A stretch of DNA of 64,000 nt from an uncultured Marinilabiliaceae bacterium (GTDB taxonomy: Bacteria > Bacteroidota > Bacteroidia > Bacteroidales > Marinilabiliaceae), in the NCBI GenBank assembly GCA_937920475.1, contig CALEUX010000052.1:1-64000 (forward strand). Reading direction: 5' to 3'. The position numbers were made by a program, and so were the translations under genes. Shown piece after piece: positions 46,664 through 64,000 of the stretch. The notes below the pieces were generated by a model, which was not told the DNA's origin, made no database searches, and saw only the letters and a program-made list of their open reading frames with translations. Each line of letters opens with the position of its first letter. Within the stretch, counting starts at the first letter, position 1.

Positions 46664-46993
46664 CTATGGCCTTATTGAACTCATTAATAAAATAGCATGG
46701 CGAATATTAACGCCACGAGGACAGGTTAACTGGCATTTTCCGCAAAGCATACAATTCTGAGCTTCTTTCCTGATTTCATTAACCAGGCCACGCTTCAAAT
46801 ACAGGTTAAGCCGGTAAAACCTTAAATCGGTAAAATGACCAGCTGTGCACATGGCGGCACAATTTCCGCAACCAATACACTTCAACAACGATGGTTCCCG
46901 ATGCAAAACACCTTCAATGGTTTCGGGAGTTTCAACATCGAGATTGATGCTGCGTACATTGGCATCAAAAAAACCAAACTTTGTACCGGCCAT
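46664..46993 (-). CDS. Small HdrC-like ferredoxin subunit
   Basis: 109 aa with two [4Fe-4S] motifs, CIGCGNCAAMC and CMLCGKCQLTCP. It starts directly after the hdrA stop and ends 14 bp before the membrane HdrD fusion, so it is most likely the electron carrier between HdrA and that protein. Confidence 0.87.
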   Translation of the reverse strand: MAGTKFGFFDANVRSINLDVETPETIEGVLHREPSLLKCIGCGNCAAMCTAGHFTDLRFYRLNLYLKRGLVNEIRKEAQNCMLCGKCQLTCPRGVNIRHAILLMSSIRP

Positions 46994-48049
46994 TTATTTA
47001 ATTTTGTTATTAAAATAATTCAACACCTCAATGGAGGTGGCTTTGGCATCTTGTAACACTTCCGGTATAGAAGCCGGGCCTTTACAGGCTCCGGTAATAA
47101 ATAATCCCGCTTGTTGATGGTGATTCATCTTTAAAAAAACGTCATCCGGTGTAATAAACGATGAACCATACGCAGGTTGATTAAGATAAACCGCATCATT
47201 CTTCATTTCGAGACTTACAGCAGGAATCATACCAACCATAAGCACCAACATGTCTAAAGTAAGCTTTGCAGGCCGTCCTAACAATGTATCTTCTGCTTTT
47301 ACCTGTAAGCGATTATCCTGCGACGGTGATGCCTCTGATAAACGCCCCCTGATAAATTGAATGTTGTATTTGGTTTGAGCTTCCTGGTACAGCTCTTCGT
47401 ACCCCGTTCCAAACATGCGCATATCCATATAAAAGCAATAAACCGTAGCCCCGGGAAACTTCTTTTTGAGTTCAATAGCCTGCTTTACAGCAGTAACACA
47501 GCACACTTTACTGCAATAAAGATTTCCGCATTTGGCATCGCGCGAGCCAACACAATGAACAATACCAAAACGTAAATCCTTGCCTGATGAGTTGAAAGGC
47601 CATGTCGTCTCGCCTTTGAATATGGATTCCAGATTTTCTGAAGTTACAACTGCAGGGTAAATACCATAGCCGTACTCTTCTTTCTGATGCGCATCAAAAG
47701 TATTAAAACCGGTGGCAATAACCACTGCATCGCTGTTGATGACTAATCCATCGTCGGTACCCAGCTCCCATTGTCCGTTGCTTTTGCTTATTTTGGAAAC
47801 CCGTTTGTTTTTAAAAAATTGAATGTTTTCTTTTTGAATACCTTGTTGTAATACCTTTAAAATTTCATTGGAAGGGCGGCTATCTGGGAACAAATGCGAC
47901 CATTTTTCAAGATGCCCACCGGTTTTAGCTTGTTTATCGATGAGCAATACCTGAACCTGATTTTGTGATAAAACTGTAGCTGCCTGCAACCCCGCCGGAC
48001 CAGCTCCAATTATGGCAACTTGTTTTATATTGTTATTCTTTTGACTCAT
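46994..48049 (-). CDS. Short HdrA-like flavoprotein
   Basis: 351 aa. FAD site AIIGAGPAGLQAATVLSQN, then the HdrA signature GIVHCVGSRDAKCGNLYCSKVCC region (shown by VHCVGSRD and NLYCSKVCC) and MRMFGTGYEELYQEAQ. It lacks the insert ferredoxin and the N-/C-terminal [4Fe-4S] domains of methanogen HdrA, so it matches the short forms seen in sHdr and Qmo systems. It is expected to hold FAD at the centre of the complex. Separated from hdrB by a GxxExxY gene. Confidence 0.88.
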   Translation of the reverse strand: MSQKNNNIKQVAIIGAGPAGLQAATVLSQNQVQVLLIDKQAKTGGHLEKWSHLFPDSRPSNEILKVLQQGIQKENIQFFKNKRVSKISKSNGQWELGTDDGLVINSDAVVIATGFNTFDAHQKEEYGYGIYPAVVTSENLESIFKGETTWPFNSSGKDLRFGIVHCVGSRDAKCGNLYCSKVCCVTAVKQAIELKKKFPGATVYCFYMDMRMFGTGYEELYQEAQTKYNIQFIRGRLSEASPSQDNRLQVKAEDTLLGRPAKLTLDMLVLMVGMIPAVSLEMKNDAVYLNQPAYGSSFITPDDVFLKMNHHQQAGLFITGACKGPASIPEVLQDAKATSIEVLNYFNNKIK

Positions 48050-48059
48050 ATTGTCTAAA

Positions 48060-48470
48060 CTAATCCTTTAGTTGTCTGTACAATTCGTTTACATAAGTTT
48101 TTTGGCCCTCTTTGAAAATATTAGCGGTGTTGAAATTTATCAGTATCCCTTCCGGAGAATTTAATAGCCTCATATAGGTTAATATTTGAGCCTCGTGAAC
48201 CGGTAAAATGGTTTCAAGAGATTTTAATTCGACCACCAATATGTTTTCAACAAATAAGTCACATCTTAACTCTGCTTCTAATTCAAGTCCTTTATAATTA
48301 ACCGGTACTATTATTTCTGATAGAAAACCAATTCCCCTTAATATCAACTCTTTTACCATACATTTATGATAAACACTCTCCAGCAAGCCTGGCCCTAATG
48401 ATTTGTGCACCTCAATGGCTGCACCATAAACCTGATAAACTAAATCTTTTAGATATGTTTTAGTTATCAT
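48060..48470 (-). CDS. GxxExxY family protein
   Basis: 136 aa from the ATG at 48470. The family name motif is seen as GPGLLESVY. Downstream CDLFVENILVVELKS and HEAQILTYMRL fit a PD-(D/E)XK nuclease core, so it may act on nucleic acids. It lies between hdrB and hdrA, out of functional context, 10 bp from hdrA, and has a 9-bp-period inverted repeat array at its 5' side. This looks like an inserted cassette. Confidence 0.88.
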   Translation of the reverse strand: MITKTYLKDLVYQVYGAAIEVHKSLGPGLLESVYHKCMVKELILRGIGFLSEIIVPVNYKGLELEAELRCDLFVENILVVELKSLETILPVHEAQILTYMRLLNSPEGILINFNTANIFKEGQKTYVNELYRQLKD

Positions 48471-48494
48471 ACTCAATTATTTCGTATTTTTTTA

Positions 48495-48652
48495 ACCATA
48501 TAAGGCATATAAGAATCAACATAATAAATTCAAACACGTATACACTTCCTGTCATTTTTTGTTTTAATAAATCATTTGAGACCTATAAGACATATAAGTA
48601 ATAAGATAAAAAACTAATATGCCTTATATTCTTCCTAAATGCCTTATATGGT
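48495..48652. repeat. 9-bp-period inverted repeat array beside GxxExxY
   Basis: ACCATATAAGGCAT (48495-48508) is the exact reverse complement of ATGCCTTATATGGT (48639-48652). Between them are more units of ATATAAGnC type (e.g. acctataag-acatataag near 48581-48599) and inverted ones (atgccttat-attcttcct near 48619). The array fills the 190-bp gap between hdrB and the GxxExxY gene. Confidence 0.65.
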
Positions 48653-48668
48653 AAAAGTACACTTTTGC

Positions 48669-49715
48669 TTAAACCATTAAAACCGACGGCTTTTCAGGCT
48701 TTACTTCATTTTTGTTTCCCAGGTAATATTTTGTTTTGGCTGAATAACGAACACCCATTTTATCGAGTAGCGATTCTACACCAACCTGGTGCATTTGAAG
48801 CCCTAATACCCACGGGTCGAAACCTAAGACCAATCCGGCAGCTTCTTCAAAAGTTAATACAGGAATTCCTCTTCCATCTCTATCATAAGTAACCCCGTTA
48901 ATTTCAGAGAGGGTATATTGCCACCGGTCGAGAAACATATTACACCCCGGACAATTGGTCAGAATAAAATCGGGATTATAAGGCGCCATGGATTCAAATT
49001 TAACTTTTGAGTTGGACACAGAATAGCCTCTGTTAGCCTGAACCAAATAATGCCTAAAACCAAATCCGCAACAATGGCGTCGTTCGGGGTAATCGACCAC
49101 CCGGCCACCCCAGCTTTCTATAATGCCTGTTAAAACAGTAGGAAATTCAGCACCTCCAAAACCTTTCTGAGGGAAAATTTTAGCATAGTGGCAACCTACA
49201 TGCTCTACCCCATTCAGTGGTTGACCGGTTTCTTGATTAACCAGACTGTATTGAGCCATATTGAATAACTCATCGCGAAAGTGATAAATGGCATCAGAAG
49301 CATGAACCACAACCTGAGGCACTTCAAACTCGCGACGGGTAGCCCTCCACAACGCCTCGCGTGTTTGTGCCAGTTTATCGGGAAAGTGGTGCCACATATC
49401 CAATATTTCGAGATAAATGCCAAACGAAGTAACACAGGATACCAACAGGTTTTTATACCCGGCCTCAGTCATTAGCGCCAATTGGCGTGCTACTACCGTC
49501 ATAATGGTTTCCAGCGGAATAATATCGGAATGATAACCTATACCGGTGCAGGTAGTGTGCCGTTTATCTTCAAAAACATCTTTTTTCAGGTACTCCTGCA
49601 TGATGCGTAAAAAAGCAACCTCAGCCCCGGGAAAAAATGATTGCCTGATGCAGCTGCGGACATAAAAAAAGTGGTTATCGGGAACCTGTTTCTGATAATC
49701 CTTCCAGGTTTGCAT
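48669..49715 (-). CDS. HdrB-like subunit
   Basis: 348 aa. The C-terminal CCG domain is complete (C175, C215-C216, C255, C258) and should carry a noncubane [4Fe-4S] cluster. The N-terminal CCG is degenerate: C22, a single C56 in HTTCTG and C94 in SCVTSF, with the CC and CxxC pairs lost. This would leave one disulfide-handling cluster. It follows hdrC by 3 bp and is clearly part of one complex. Confidence 0.88.
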   Translation of the reverse strand: MQTWKDYQKQVPDNHFFYVRSCIRQSFFPGAEVAFLRIMQEYLKKDVFEDKRHTTCTGIGYHSDIIPLETIMTVVARQLALMTEAGYKNLLVSCVTSFGIYLEILDMWHHFPDKLAQTREALWRATRREFEVPQVVVHASDAIYHFRDELFNMAQYSLVNQETGQPLNGVEHVGCHYAKIFPQKGFGGAEFPTVLTGIIESWGGRVVDYPERRHCCGFGFRHYLVQANRGYSVSNSKVKFESMAPYNPDFILTNCPGCNMFLDRWQYTLSEINGVTYDRDGRGIPVLTFEEAAGLVLGFDPWVLGLQMHQVGVESLLDKMGVRYSAKTKYYLGNKNEVKPEKPSVLMV

Positions 49716-49718
49716 ATA

Positions 49719-50402
49719 TTATTCCTGTATAAATTTCATGTATTCATTATCAGCATCAGCGGAAAAAGAAAGATTAAGTTCTTTCGCCTTTGATGCAGAA
49801 GCCTTTTCAATTTGTTCAAAAAGCTTTACGGCCCCGGTTTCTTCAAAAATATTTCGAAGCTCATCCAAAGACGTTTCGTCAATAAGCCTGACACCGCCTT
49901 CACCGGGTTTATAGTAATTTGAGCCCAACTGAGGAAACAGACTTTCTCCATTTTCGTAAACCCAATTCCATACCGGTCCCTGCTCGGGATGCTCTTCCGG
50001 GTTTACCAGTTTTGGATGCACACAATAGCCAGTCTCAAGAATACTATGCCCTATTTTTCGTTTGATAAGTAATTGCTGACGCCCCAAGCGGGAATTAACA
50101 AACAGACCTGTTTGCTGACTAATTTTCCGAATTACCTGAATGATGTAACCCGGCGTATTGTTTCGTGGGCAACGCGTTTTGCACGATAAACACTGGCCAC
50201 ACATCCATATTTCTTCGCCACTCAGAAGTTCAGTAAGAATATCCTCATCGCCGGTTTGTACAAGCTGACAAATTTTGCGGGGGTCGTAGTCGTAATATCC
50301 GGCGGCAGGGCAGATAGCAGTACATACACCACAATTCATGCAGGCTGTAAGACCTTCCTGAAAGCGAATATCGGCCCGCATTTGTTCAATAACAGGTTGC
50401 AT
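49719..50402 (-). CDS. HdrC-like ferredoxin subunit
   Basis: 227 aa. Two [4Fe-4S] motifs, CMNCGVCTAICP and CGQCLSCKTRCP, then a helical C-terminal part that in this family contacts HdrB. First gene of the hdr set; a minus-strand TACTTTTG lies about 26 bp upstream. Confidence 0.88.
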   Translation of the reverse strand: MQPVIEQMRADIRFQEGLTACMNCGVCTAICPAAGYYDYDPRKICQLVQTGDEDILTELLSGEEIWMCGQCLSCKTRCPRNNTPGYIIQVIRKISQQTGLFVNSRLGRQQLLIKRKIGHSILETGYCVHPKLVNPEEHPEQGPVWNWVYENGESLFPQLGSNYYKPGEGGVRLIDETSLDELRNIFEETGAVKLFEQIEKASASKAKELNLSFSADADNEYMKFIQE

Positions 50403-57663: not shown

Positions 57664-58149
57664 TTATGAGTTTGATAGTTTATTGTTGAGAGTTGATAGT
57701 TGAGGGTTGAGGGTTGATAGTTGAGGGTTGATAGTTGATAGTTGAGGGTTGGGTTGTATTAGGGATATTTCGTTGGCTTTTATGAGTGCTGTAACCGAAG
57801 TTCCTTCTGTAAGTTCGAGTGCGTTAACCGCCCGTGTTGTAATGGCAGAATACAAAGTTTGTTCACCAAAGTTTAATTCAACCAAACTAAGCAGTTCGCC
57901 TCGACTTATTGATTTAACAATACATGAAAATCTATTACGCAGACTTATTTTGCCGAAAAGATTAACTGCGATAGAAAGCTCAGACTCTTTAAAAACCGCA
58001 AGTGCCTCAGCATTTGGGACTAACCATGGCGGCAAATCATCGGCATCGATAAGAAGAGCCGACATTTTTGTATTGTCTGATTCTAAATCGACAAGAACAA
58101 CACCGCCTGATGTTGTGATGCTTTTTATTATGGCTGGAATTTTATTCAT
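57664..58149 (-). CDS. Double-TOBE molybdate-binding protein with a heptapeptide-repeat tail
   Basis: 161 aa. TOBE-like half ~5-65 (IPAIIKSITTSGGVVLVDLE) and a clearer one ~68-133 (SLRNRFSCIVKSISRGELLS, NALELTEGTSVTALIKANEI). It likely buffers or senses molybdate beside ModABC. The last ~25 residues repeat NPQLSTI/L units and are encoded by a 7-bp DNA array that elsewhere is intergenic, so the natural domain end is near residue 133 and the tail is acquired. Lies between modA and modB. Confidence 0.8.
   Translation of the reverse strand: MNKIPAIIKSITTSGGVVLVDLESDNTKMSALLIDADDLPPWLVPNAEALAVFKESELSIAVNLFGKISLRNRFSCIVKSISRGELLSLVELNFGEQTLYSAITTRAVNALELTEGTSVTALIKANEISLIQPNPQLSTINPQLSTLNPQLSTLNNKLSNS
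57673..57752. repeat. Heptamer array inside the 3' end of the double-TOBE gene
   Basis: Plus strand units of gttgaga / gttgata / gttgagg follow each other with a strict 7-bp period. Three units make 21 bp, so the minus-strand reading frame yields a 7-residue repeat. Same unit family as the arrays at 61575-61745 and 63054-63160. Confidence 0.8.
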
Positions 58150-61574: not shown

Positions 61575-61745
61575 GTTTAGTTTAGTTGATGAGTTTTAAG
61601 TTTAGAGTTTATTGTTTAGAGTTTAGAGTTTAGAGTTGGTTGTTGGTTGTTGATAGTTGATTGTTTGGGGTTTTGAGTATTATGCCTTCTGACCTTGGAA
61701 CCTTCTTACCTTCCAACCATCAACTCAAAACTCCCCAACTAATGA
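61575..61745. repeat. Heptamer array with inverted half, nifB-fdx gap
   Basis: tttagag/gtttaga and gttgata units (61600-61665) run one way; caaccat-caactca-aaactcc units (61712-61740) run as the complement, so the array can fold back on itself. Fills the 195-bp gap. Confidence 0.7.
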
Positions 61746-63037: not shown

Positions 63038-63053
63038 GGCGTTTCTTTATTAG

Positions 63054-63160
63054 TTTAGGGTTTAGGGTTTAGGGTTTAGGGTTGAGAGTTGTCTCAGATT
63101 CCAACCATCAACTCTGAACTATCAACTATCAACTCCGAACTTTAAACTTTGAACTTCGAA
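63054..63160. repeat. Heptamer array with inverted half, nifN-nifB gap
   Basis: Four consecutive TTTAGGG units at 63054-63082, then gttgaga, and after a short spacer caactct-gaactat-caactat-caactcc-gaacttt-aaacttt-gaacttc units to ~63160. The second half is the complementary class, so the whole can form a long imperfect hairpin. Confidence 0.75.
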
Positions 63161-63161
63161 C

Positions 63162-64000
63162 TTATATATACTTATACCCTACCGGGCTGTTTTCCTGTTT
63201 GTATTCGATGAGGGCGTTTACAATGCGGTCGAACAATTCCTGGGTGCCACGATAACCGATGTGGTGGATGCGTGATGCGCCAAAGCGGTCGTGAATGGGA
63301 AAGCCGGCGCGAACCAAAGGAATTTTCATCTCCCGGGCGATGTAGTAGCCTTTGCTGTTGCCTATCATGATATCAGGCTTAAGCTCCTGCATGATTTCAC
63401 GCATTGAGGCAAAGTCGGAGCCATCGGCAATGCAGATATCGGGACCGGCAATCGTCTCAAGGGTGCTTTTCATTAACCCGCTTGCAGCACCCGAGGCTAC
63501 CAAAACCGGCACCATTCCAATCTCAAGAAGAAAAGCCGCCAGTGCAATCACAAAATCCTCTTCGCCATAAATCACGGCACGTTTGCCAAACACATATTTA
63601 TGGGCATCCACGTAAGCATCAATCAGGCGGCCGCGCTCCTTTTGGTGTTTATCGGGCATCGGACTTTGAGCTATACCACTCAGCAGGTTAAAGAATTTAT
63701 CACTGACATCTATGCCAATTGGAAAACCAAGCTGGTGGTTCGTTACAAACATTTTTTCCTGTAGCCACTGTCCGGCACTTACTATTGAGTTTCCAATTGT
63801 ACTTTTTCCACCACGATTAAATACAGTCCCAAATTCTATGGTTGCTTTTGCAGAGCCGGTCATCTCAAGCTCAGAAATGGTAGTCCCACCCGAAGGAACC
63901 AATTGATACTCGCGGGTGTGCACATTGTCGAGTGTTTCTGAATAGTCGGGAAAAACAGTGGCAGGTATATGAAAATCGATGCAAAGTTCTTTCAGATACC
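63162..64000 (-). CDS. nifN: Nitrogenase FeMo-co scaffold NifN, 3' part
   Basis: About 278 codons of the C-terminal part; the frame is open through the window edge, so the start is outside. NifN features: PDYSETLDN near the edge, SGGTTISELEMTGSA, GIDVSDKFFNLLSGI, KRAVIYGEEDFVIALAAFL, LVRAGFPIHDRFGASRIHHI. With NifE it receives NifB-co and matures it. Upstream of nifB in the same direction. Confidence 0.92.
   Translation of the reverse strand, partial: YLKELCIDFHIPATVFPDYSETLDNVHTREYQLVPSGGTTISELEMTGSAKATIEFGTVFNRGGKSTIGNSIVSAGQWLQEKMFVTNHQLGFPIGIDVSDKFFNLLSGIAQSPMPDKHQKERGRLIDAYVDAHKYVFGKRAVIYGEEDFVIALAAFLLEIGMVPVLVASGAASGLMKSTLETIAGPDICIADGSDFASMREIMQELKPDIMIGNSKGYYIAREMKIPLVRAGFPIHDRFGASRIHHIGYRGTQELFDRIVNALIEYKQENSPVGYKYI

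Follow-up and report, generated by a model that had tools for sequence, protein, structure and literature searches.

A GxxExxY nuclease-like gene with its palindromic repeat arrays between hdrB and hdrA: an apparently undescribed and probably mobile cassette of Bacteroidota

Background

REP hairpins are regarded as the sites of action of RAYT transposases. In the REPtrons and TIRtrons, the latter with terminal inverted repeats, a RAYT gene is accompanied by palindromes, repeats without the gene are dispersed, and one genome can contain several such families (PMC3733652). Another small gene that lies between complementary termini is S23, the gene of the intervening sequences of 23S rRNA; RNase III cuts the terminal stems of these sequences, and mobility has been proposed for them (PMC4990558). 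The Avd protein of diversity-generating retroelements has been described as a homologue of S23 (PMC10053308), and heptamer arrays were noted earlier in Bacteroidetes, without a link to S23 (PMC4679880). In the literature outside subscription papers and preprints I found no description of a link between GxxExxY genes and repeats; GxxExxY is mentioned there in passing, and I found no role for it.

Results

The window, that is, the whole analysed stretch of 64,000 nucleotides from an uncultured Marinilabiliaceae bacterium, contains on its minus strand a heterodisulfide-reductase-like operon with hdrC-, hdrB- and hdrA-like genes (46664-50402). As the preliminary description of this DNA had claimed, a GxxExxY (PDDEXK_3) nuclease-like gene of 138 aa (48060-48476, minus strand) separates hdrB from hdrA, which is now borne out by profile matches of the gene and of both neighbours: the HdrB-like gene upstream (48669-49715, minus strand; NF041780) and the gene of the HdrA-like flavoprotein downstream (46994-48049, minus strand; NF040770), both with scores below the curated cut-off. 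Between the stop codon of hdrB at 48669 and the start of hdrA at 48049 lie the nuclease-like gene, for which ATG at 48470 is a likelier start than TTG at 48476, and a hairpin-forming gap of 192 nt that reaches from the hdrB stop to this gene (48477-48668, minus strand). The stop of the GxxExxY gene is 10 bp from hdrA, and these 10 bp are without any array. The spacing of the remaining hdr genes, 0-14 bp, is as had been described.

Within the gap lie four array copies with CATATAAGNCATATAAG as their unit, in one outer and one inner inverted pair, as located by searches for inverted repeats and for the unit. The outer arm beside the GxxExxY gene (48491-48515, plus strand; TTTAACCATATAAGGCATATAAGAA) has its complement beside hdrB (48632-48656, minus strand); these 25-nt arms are 88% complementary and enclose an exact 14-bp inverted pair, ACCATATAAGGCAT at 48496-48509 and ATGCCTTATATGGT at 48639-48652, which the preliminary description had already seen. 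The inner copies are located at 48575-48598 (plus strand, ending in ACCTATAAGACATATAAG) and 48614-48630 (minus strand, AATATAAGGCATATTAG). With up to two mismatches the unit has four matches in the window, all within the gap between hdrB and the GxxExxY gene, where 0.07 would be expected. Folded as RNA, the gap reaches -50.6 kcal/mol, which corresponds to z = -6.0 when compared with 200 shuffled sequences. A known RNA family was considered for it and rejected, as Rfam gave no match at 47900-48800.

In order to see whether gene and array were inserted into the operon, 26 relatives with a match to hdrA were compared, in 25 of which hdrB is adjacent. As none of these 25 carries a GxxExxY gene at the hdrB-hdrA junction, the gene with its array looks inserted relative to them, and a fixed feature of the hdr operon is rejected. 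The junction measures 619 bp in the window but does not exceed 111 bp in 23 of these relatives, often only a few bases or an overlap, and 13 bp in the closest of them (L147, hdrB 76% identical), in agreement with the initially supposed insertion of about 600 bp. At the same junction one relative (L157) has a gap of 296 bp with an array that lacks the gene and is built of another unit. I found neither a fresh insertion event nor a target-site duplication, and the AT-rich flanks prevent an exact placing of the ends.

The protein belongs to its family by a wide margin (129.2 bits against cut-offs of 35 for TIGR04256 and 22 for PF13366). A sequence search yielded no convincing solved structure. 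Comparison of its AlphaFold2 model (pLDDT 94.9, pTM 0.88) with solved structures gave Cas4 SSO0001 as the closest fold (TM 0.5), followed by lambda exonuclease; most of the PD-(D/E)XK proteins that resemble it in fold are DNA nucleases, and Cas4 profiles match the protein weakly. E33, D73, E83 and Y101 do not vary across 42 diverse relatives, and at least 90% of these keep K85 and Q97; the conserved E, D, E-x-K, Q and Y are what an active RecB-like nuclease should have. An anti-phage system was rejected, PADLOC giving weak Cas4 matches alone and PHROGs none. Strong purifying selection acts on the protein, as judged by dN/dS, which lies at 0.02-0.19 between GxxExxY orthologues from the same site; such low values at fixed sites fit a gene useful to the host as well as a selfish one. 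GxxExxY genes are present in about half of a Bacteroidota sample (182 of 395 genomes), with up to 10 copies.

Arrays accompany these genes elsewhere as well. When the 300 nt upstream are aligned locally with the reverse-complemented 300 nt downstream, the score has a median of 41 for 75 GxxExxY loci versus 20 for 162 control open reading frames from the same loci (p = 3e-28); 85% of the GxxExxY loci exceed the 95th percentile of the controls and 61% exceed their maximum, so that the array-bearing gene of the window is no isolated case. Nearly every inspected GxxExxY gene in other genomes is flanked by an inverted array, as a rule with AACC-unit-unit-unit upstream and its reverse complement downstream; the arms have a period of 8-10 and a unit sequence that varies by locus. 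When the 75 loci, window included, are classed, 47 have arms across the gene only, 14 combine such arms with a hairpin on one side or on both, five have a one-sided hairpin alone and nine have neither. The window falls among the five: both of its arms lie upstream of the gene and the downstream arm is absent, whereas the arms of most relatives flank the gene on both sides, so that this copy is atypical among GxxExxY cassettes. Both neighbours are on the strand of the gene in 58 of 70 GxxExxY loci, while among control genes this is so for 57 of 117 (p = 2.6e-6, an overstated value, as orthologues from the same site were left uncollapsed). A single repeat for all GxxExxY genes is rejected, as three more of these genes in the window's own genome are without the ATATAAG unit of the window and have other periodic flanks.

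Several individual loci deserve mention. At L036 (G049:C3:14906-18310), hairpin units of about 119 bp (CACATGAGGCACATAAG type), arranged in tandem, lie to either side of a GxxExxY gene 70% identical to that of the window. Local amplification is possible in two cases: at L348 (G022:C4:18500-33500) several similar GxxExxY genes with arrays of the CCGCGAATTA type are clustered, and at L347 (G171:C4:67500-71000) a GxxExxY cassette is duplicated in tandem. In two genera (L037, L040) the GxxExxY copies adjoin the same gene of a cysteine-rich protein, which is another shared junction; the copy at L040 has two internal stops.

The unit follows the protein. In 81 loci with arms, after removal of pairs with homologous neighbours, k-mer similarity of the arms correlates with protein identity (rho 0.56), versus 0.15 for segments of equal length further out (Mantel p = 5e-4). 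This supports a link between nuclease and repeat that is general and at the same time specific to the protein clade, even between unrelated sites. Part of the covariation comes from gene and arms descending together as a single cassette; a cognate element predicts this, but it is in itself no proof that the protein recognises the unit.

Most copies of the unit in the window's own genome are found without a gene. This genome has 37 ATATAAG half-sites (up to two mismatches) versus 5 for the reversed pattern, many of them in inverted pairs, and gene-less copies stand at about 16 places; a repeat confined to the GxxExxY cassette is thereby rejected. The suggestion that the nuclease gene has repeats of its own thus holds in that the unit tracks the protein clade, and fails in that the repeats are not exclusive to the gene. 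All 18 assessed places are outside open reading frames, and among the 16 with both neighbours known, one lies between divergent and six lie between convergent genes. The copies are unevenly spread, with few in a 663-kb sample of other contigs; the unit patterns of the other three GxxExxY copies were not clearly above control in these 663 kb. In 150 Flavobacterium genomes I found up to 94 half-sites each, with the reversed pattern nearly absent. At least two half-sites are present in each of the 25 genomes that encode a close relative of the protein (E at most 1e-52), and in 36 of the 88 that encode none (p = 1.5e-8, for related genomes and uncorrected for phylogeny). Seventeen genomes without a close relative nevertheless keep at least 12 half-sites each, and the gene is therefore unnecessary for the persistence of the arrays.

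The same junction can be found in several states. Among relatives, the mutA-mutB junction is empty in eight cases, carries a GxxExxY cassette in eight (one truncated, one with mutA unresolved), a cassette with an S23 gene in eight, and a gene-less array in four, two of which (L243, L245) seem to have arisen from a GxxExxY cassette by internal deletion. The window's own genome has an S23 cassette there (L226, C166), and sister genera have a GxxExxY cassette or nothing. The range at sufE-sufT in Flavobacterium is the same: some junctions are empty, with 4-6 bp, others carry full cassettes, and hairpins of other units occur as well; at L285 and L296 a hairpin of a different unit (CCACGAATTNCACGAATT) is found where others have the ATATAAG cassette. 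Presence and absence of the element at one site among relatives, as in mobile elements, is thus observed at mutA-mutB, sufE-sufT and hdrB-hdrA. In the protein tree the two site groups are separate from each other, and the mutA-mutB genes form one clade, so that the insertion at mutA-mutB is old, and loss or replacement followed.

The S23 genes at such junctions (PF05635, four-helix bundle) are unrelated to GxxExxY, and some junctions are common to both families. In the same genomes they form similar cassettes, with arm scores of at least 27 in 22 of 29 cases versus a control maximum of 28, and with lags of exactly 7, 14 and 21, that is, strict 7-bp units. The window itself contains three arrays with a 7-bp period of the kind that flanks S23, with no S23 gene noticed adjoining them: TTGATAG at 57672-57751, within the 3' end of the open reading frame 57664-58149, where it encodes a repeated PQLSTLN tail, and GAGTTTA at 61591-61718 and GTTTAGG at 63053-63163, both intergenic and palindromic-looking by eye.

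Discussion

Among described systems, REPs with their RAYT gene come close, as a single gene is flanked by palindromes that are also dispersed alone between genes, which is what I find here. However, RAYT is an HUH tyrosine transposase and the present protein a PD-(D/E)XK nuclease; REPs are single palindromes, whereas the arms here are runs of about three 8-10-bp units, for which transposition is an inference; and the REP end tag GTAG (or CGTC) has no conserved counterpart by inspection in arms that begin with AACCA. The 23S rRNA intervening sequences likewise place a small gene between complementary termini in a transcribed region, and S23 homologues occur at the very same junctions; but these sequences reside in rRNA and are cut out by RNase III (PMC4990558), whereas the element of the window lies between hdrB and hdrA, with mRNA as the host transcript, its gene is a GxxExxY nuclease instead of S23, and its units measure 8-10 instead of 7 bp. 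Gene-less inverted repeats dispersed between genes, some apparently derived by internal deletion from a gene-bearing copy (L243, L245), recall MITEs, from which they differ in that no known transposase family is linked to them. A target-site duplication was not seen, in AT-rich flanks in which the ends cannot be placed.

The protein itself resembles Cas4 and lambda exonuclease in its fold, in the E/D/E-x-K and Q-x3-Y residues and in the weak Cas4 profile matches. Cas4, however, has four cysteines for an iron-sulphur cluster and a CRISPR neighbourhood, whereas four conserved cysteines are missing among the nearly invariant columns of GxxExxY, and the gene of the window, at 138 aa, has no cas neighbours and is tied to its own repeats. 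With free-standing homing endonucleases the element shares an inserted nuclease gene that leaves its neighbours unharmed, presence and absence per site, and decay; it differs in carrying a repeat family of its own, gene-less members of which are found at many unrelated places, and no single cognate target was seen.

The explanation that I favour, and to which I give an even chance, is that of REP/RAYT-like element families in which a Cas4-like PD-(D/E)XK nuclease is the probable cognate enzyme and the cutting of hairpins drives the spread. Each family would consist of a GxxExxY gene, encoding a minimal nuclease of the Cas4/lambda-exonuclease type, and palindromic arrays of a family-specific unit with a period of 8-10 bp (ATATAAG in the window); these arrays lie on the flanks of the gene and stand alone as well, as short gene-less intergenic hairpins. 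Such elements would insert after stop codons into gaps that are transcribed, frequently within operons and without damage to the adjacent genes, and would later either be reduced to hairpins without the gene or be lost. The target of the nuclease would probably be a hairpin of the cognate unit, formed by single-stranded or cruciform DNA; after cutting at this hairpin, copies would spread or be copied in by repair, by analogy with RAYT on REP hairpins. The insertion relative to relatives, the matching arms, the covariation of unit and protein, the dispersed gene-less copies, the site states and the purifying selection are observed; that the nuclease acts on the arrays and thereby moves the element is what I infer.

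Against this stand the similar cassettes of S23 at the same junctions, given which the nuclease may not be the creator of the cassettes, and the several genomes with many gene-less copies but no close nuclease. The failure to find a fresh insertion or a target-site duplication, the single clade of the mutA-mutB genes, the dN/dS values that would equally suit a host-useful gene, and the missing downstream arm of the window copy also count against it. It is above all the occurrence of S23 at these junctions that calls for caution, as the process that makes cassettes may be general and the GxxExxY gene a passenger. In that case other machinery, either a transposase in trans or template switching of replication at hairpins, would make or move the cassettes, and the nuclease would use or resolve the hairpins, for instance by trimming them or as a guard against breakage. 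I regard this as unlikely, though as the strongest of the alternatives: the same layout with strict 7-bp units in the unrelated S23 family, the abundant gene-less copies in genomes without a close nuclease and the strong purifying selection at fixed sites speak for it, but a general mechanism would not predict that the unit tracks the nuclease clade across unrelated sites, nor that every genome with a close nuclease has the cognate unit. Distinctly less probable is that the arrays act as RNA, with hairpins in operon transcripts that stabilise, process or terminate mRNA and balance expression of the nuclease gene, mobility being merely historical, as it may be for the 23S rRNA intervening sequences. 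The co-directional neighbours (58 of 70 loci versus 57 of 117 control genes, with same-site loci uncollapsed), the fold of the gap (z = -6.0) and the RNase III-cut terminal stems of the rRNA intervening sequences to which the S23 gene belongs (PMC4990558) would suit it; however, a regulatory hairpin has no need of a gene-specific unit common to dispersed copies, six of the 16 copies in the own genome lie between convergent genes, and the fold relatives of the protein are mostly DNA nucleases. Coincidental palindromes in an AT-rich gap beside an ordinary small gene have hardly any probability left: short repeats are common in AT-rich regions, but four matches versus 0.07 expected, the fold at z = -6.0, the layout shared by most of the 75 relatives (p = 3e-28) and the covariation refute chance or a compositional artefact.

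Beyond the single cassette, I tentatively propose, with somewhat less confidence than in the favoured explanation itself, that GxxExxY proteins are the cognate enzymes of an undescribed superfamily of mobile palindromic array elements, in which a Cas4-like nuclease spreads hairpins of its own evolving unit to operon junctions, and that the S23 family evolved independently as its second version, with units of 7 bp. The general plan of dispersed palindromes with a cognate enzyme is already known; what differs is the class of enzyme and the design of the arrays, in a gene-repeat cassette that is widespread, apparently undescribed and probably mobile. For the GxxExxY proteins, the clade-specific repeat offers a direct and testable candidate substrate. 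The parallel S23 cassettes bear on the nature of the rRNA intervening sequences and their S23 gene, and the link between GxxExxY and repeats could account for part of the short intergenic repeats in Bacteroidota genomes.
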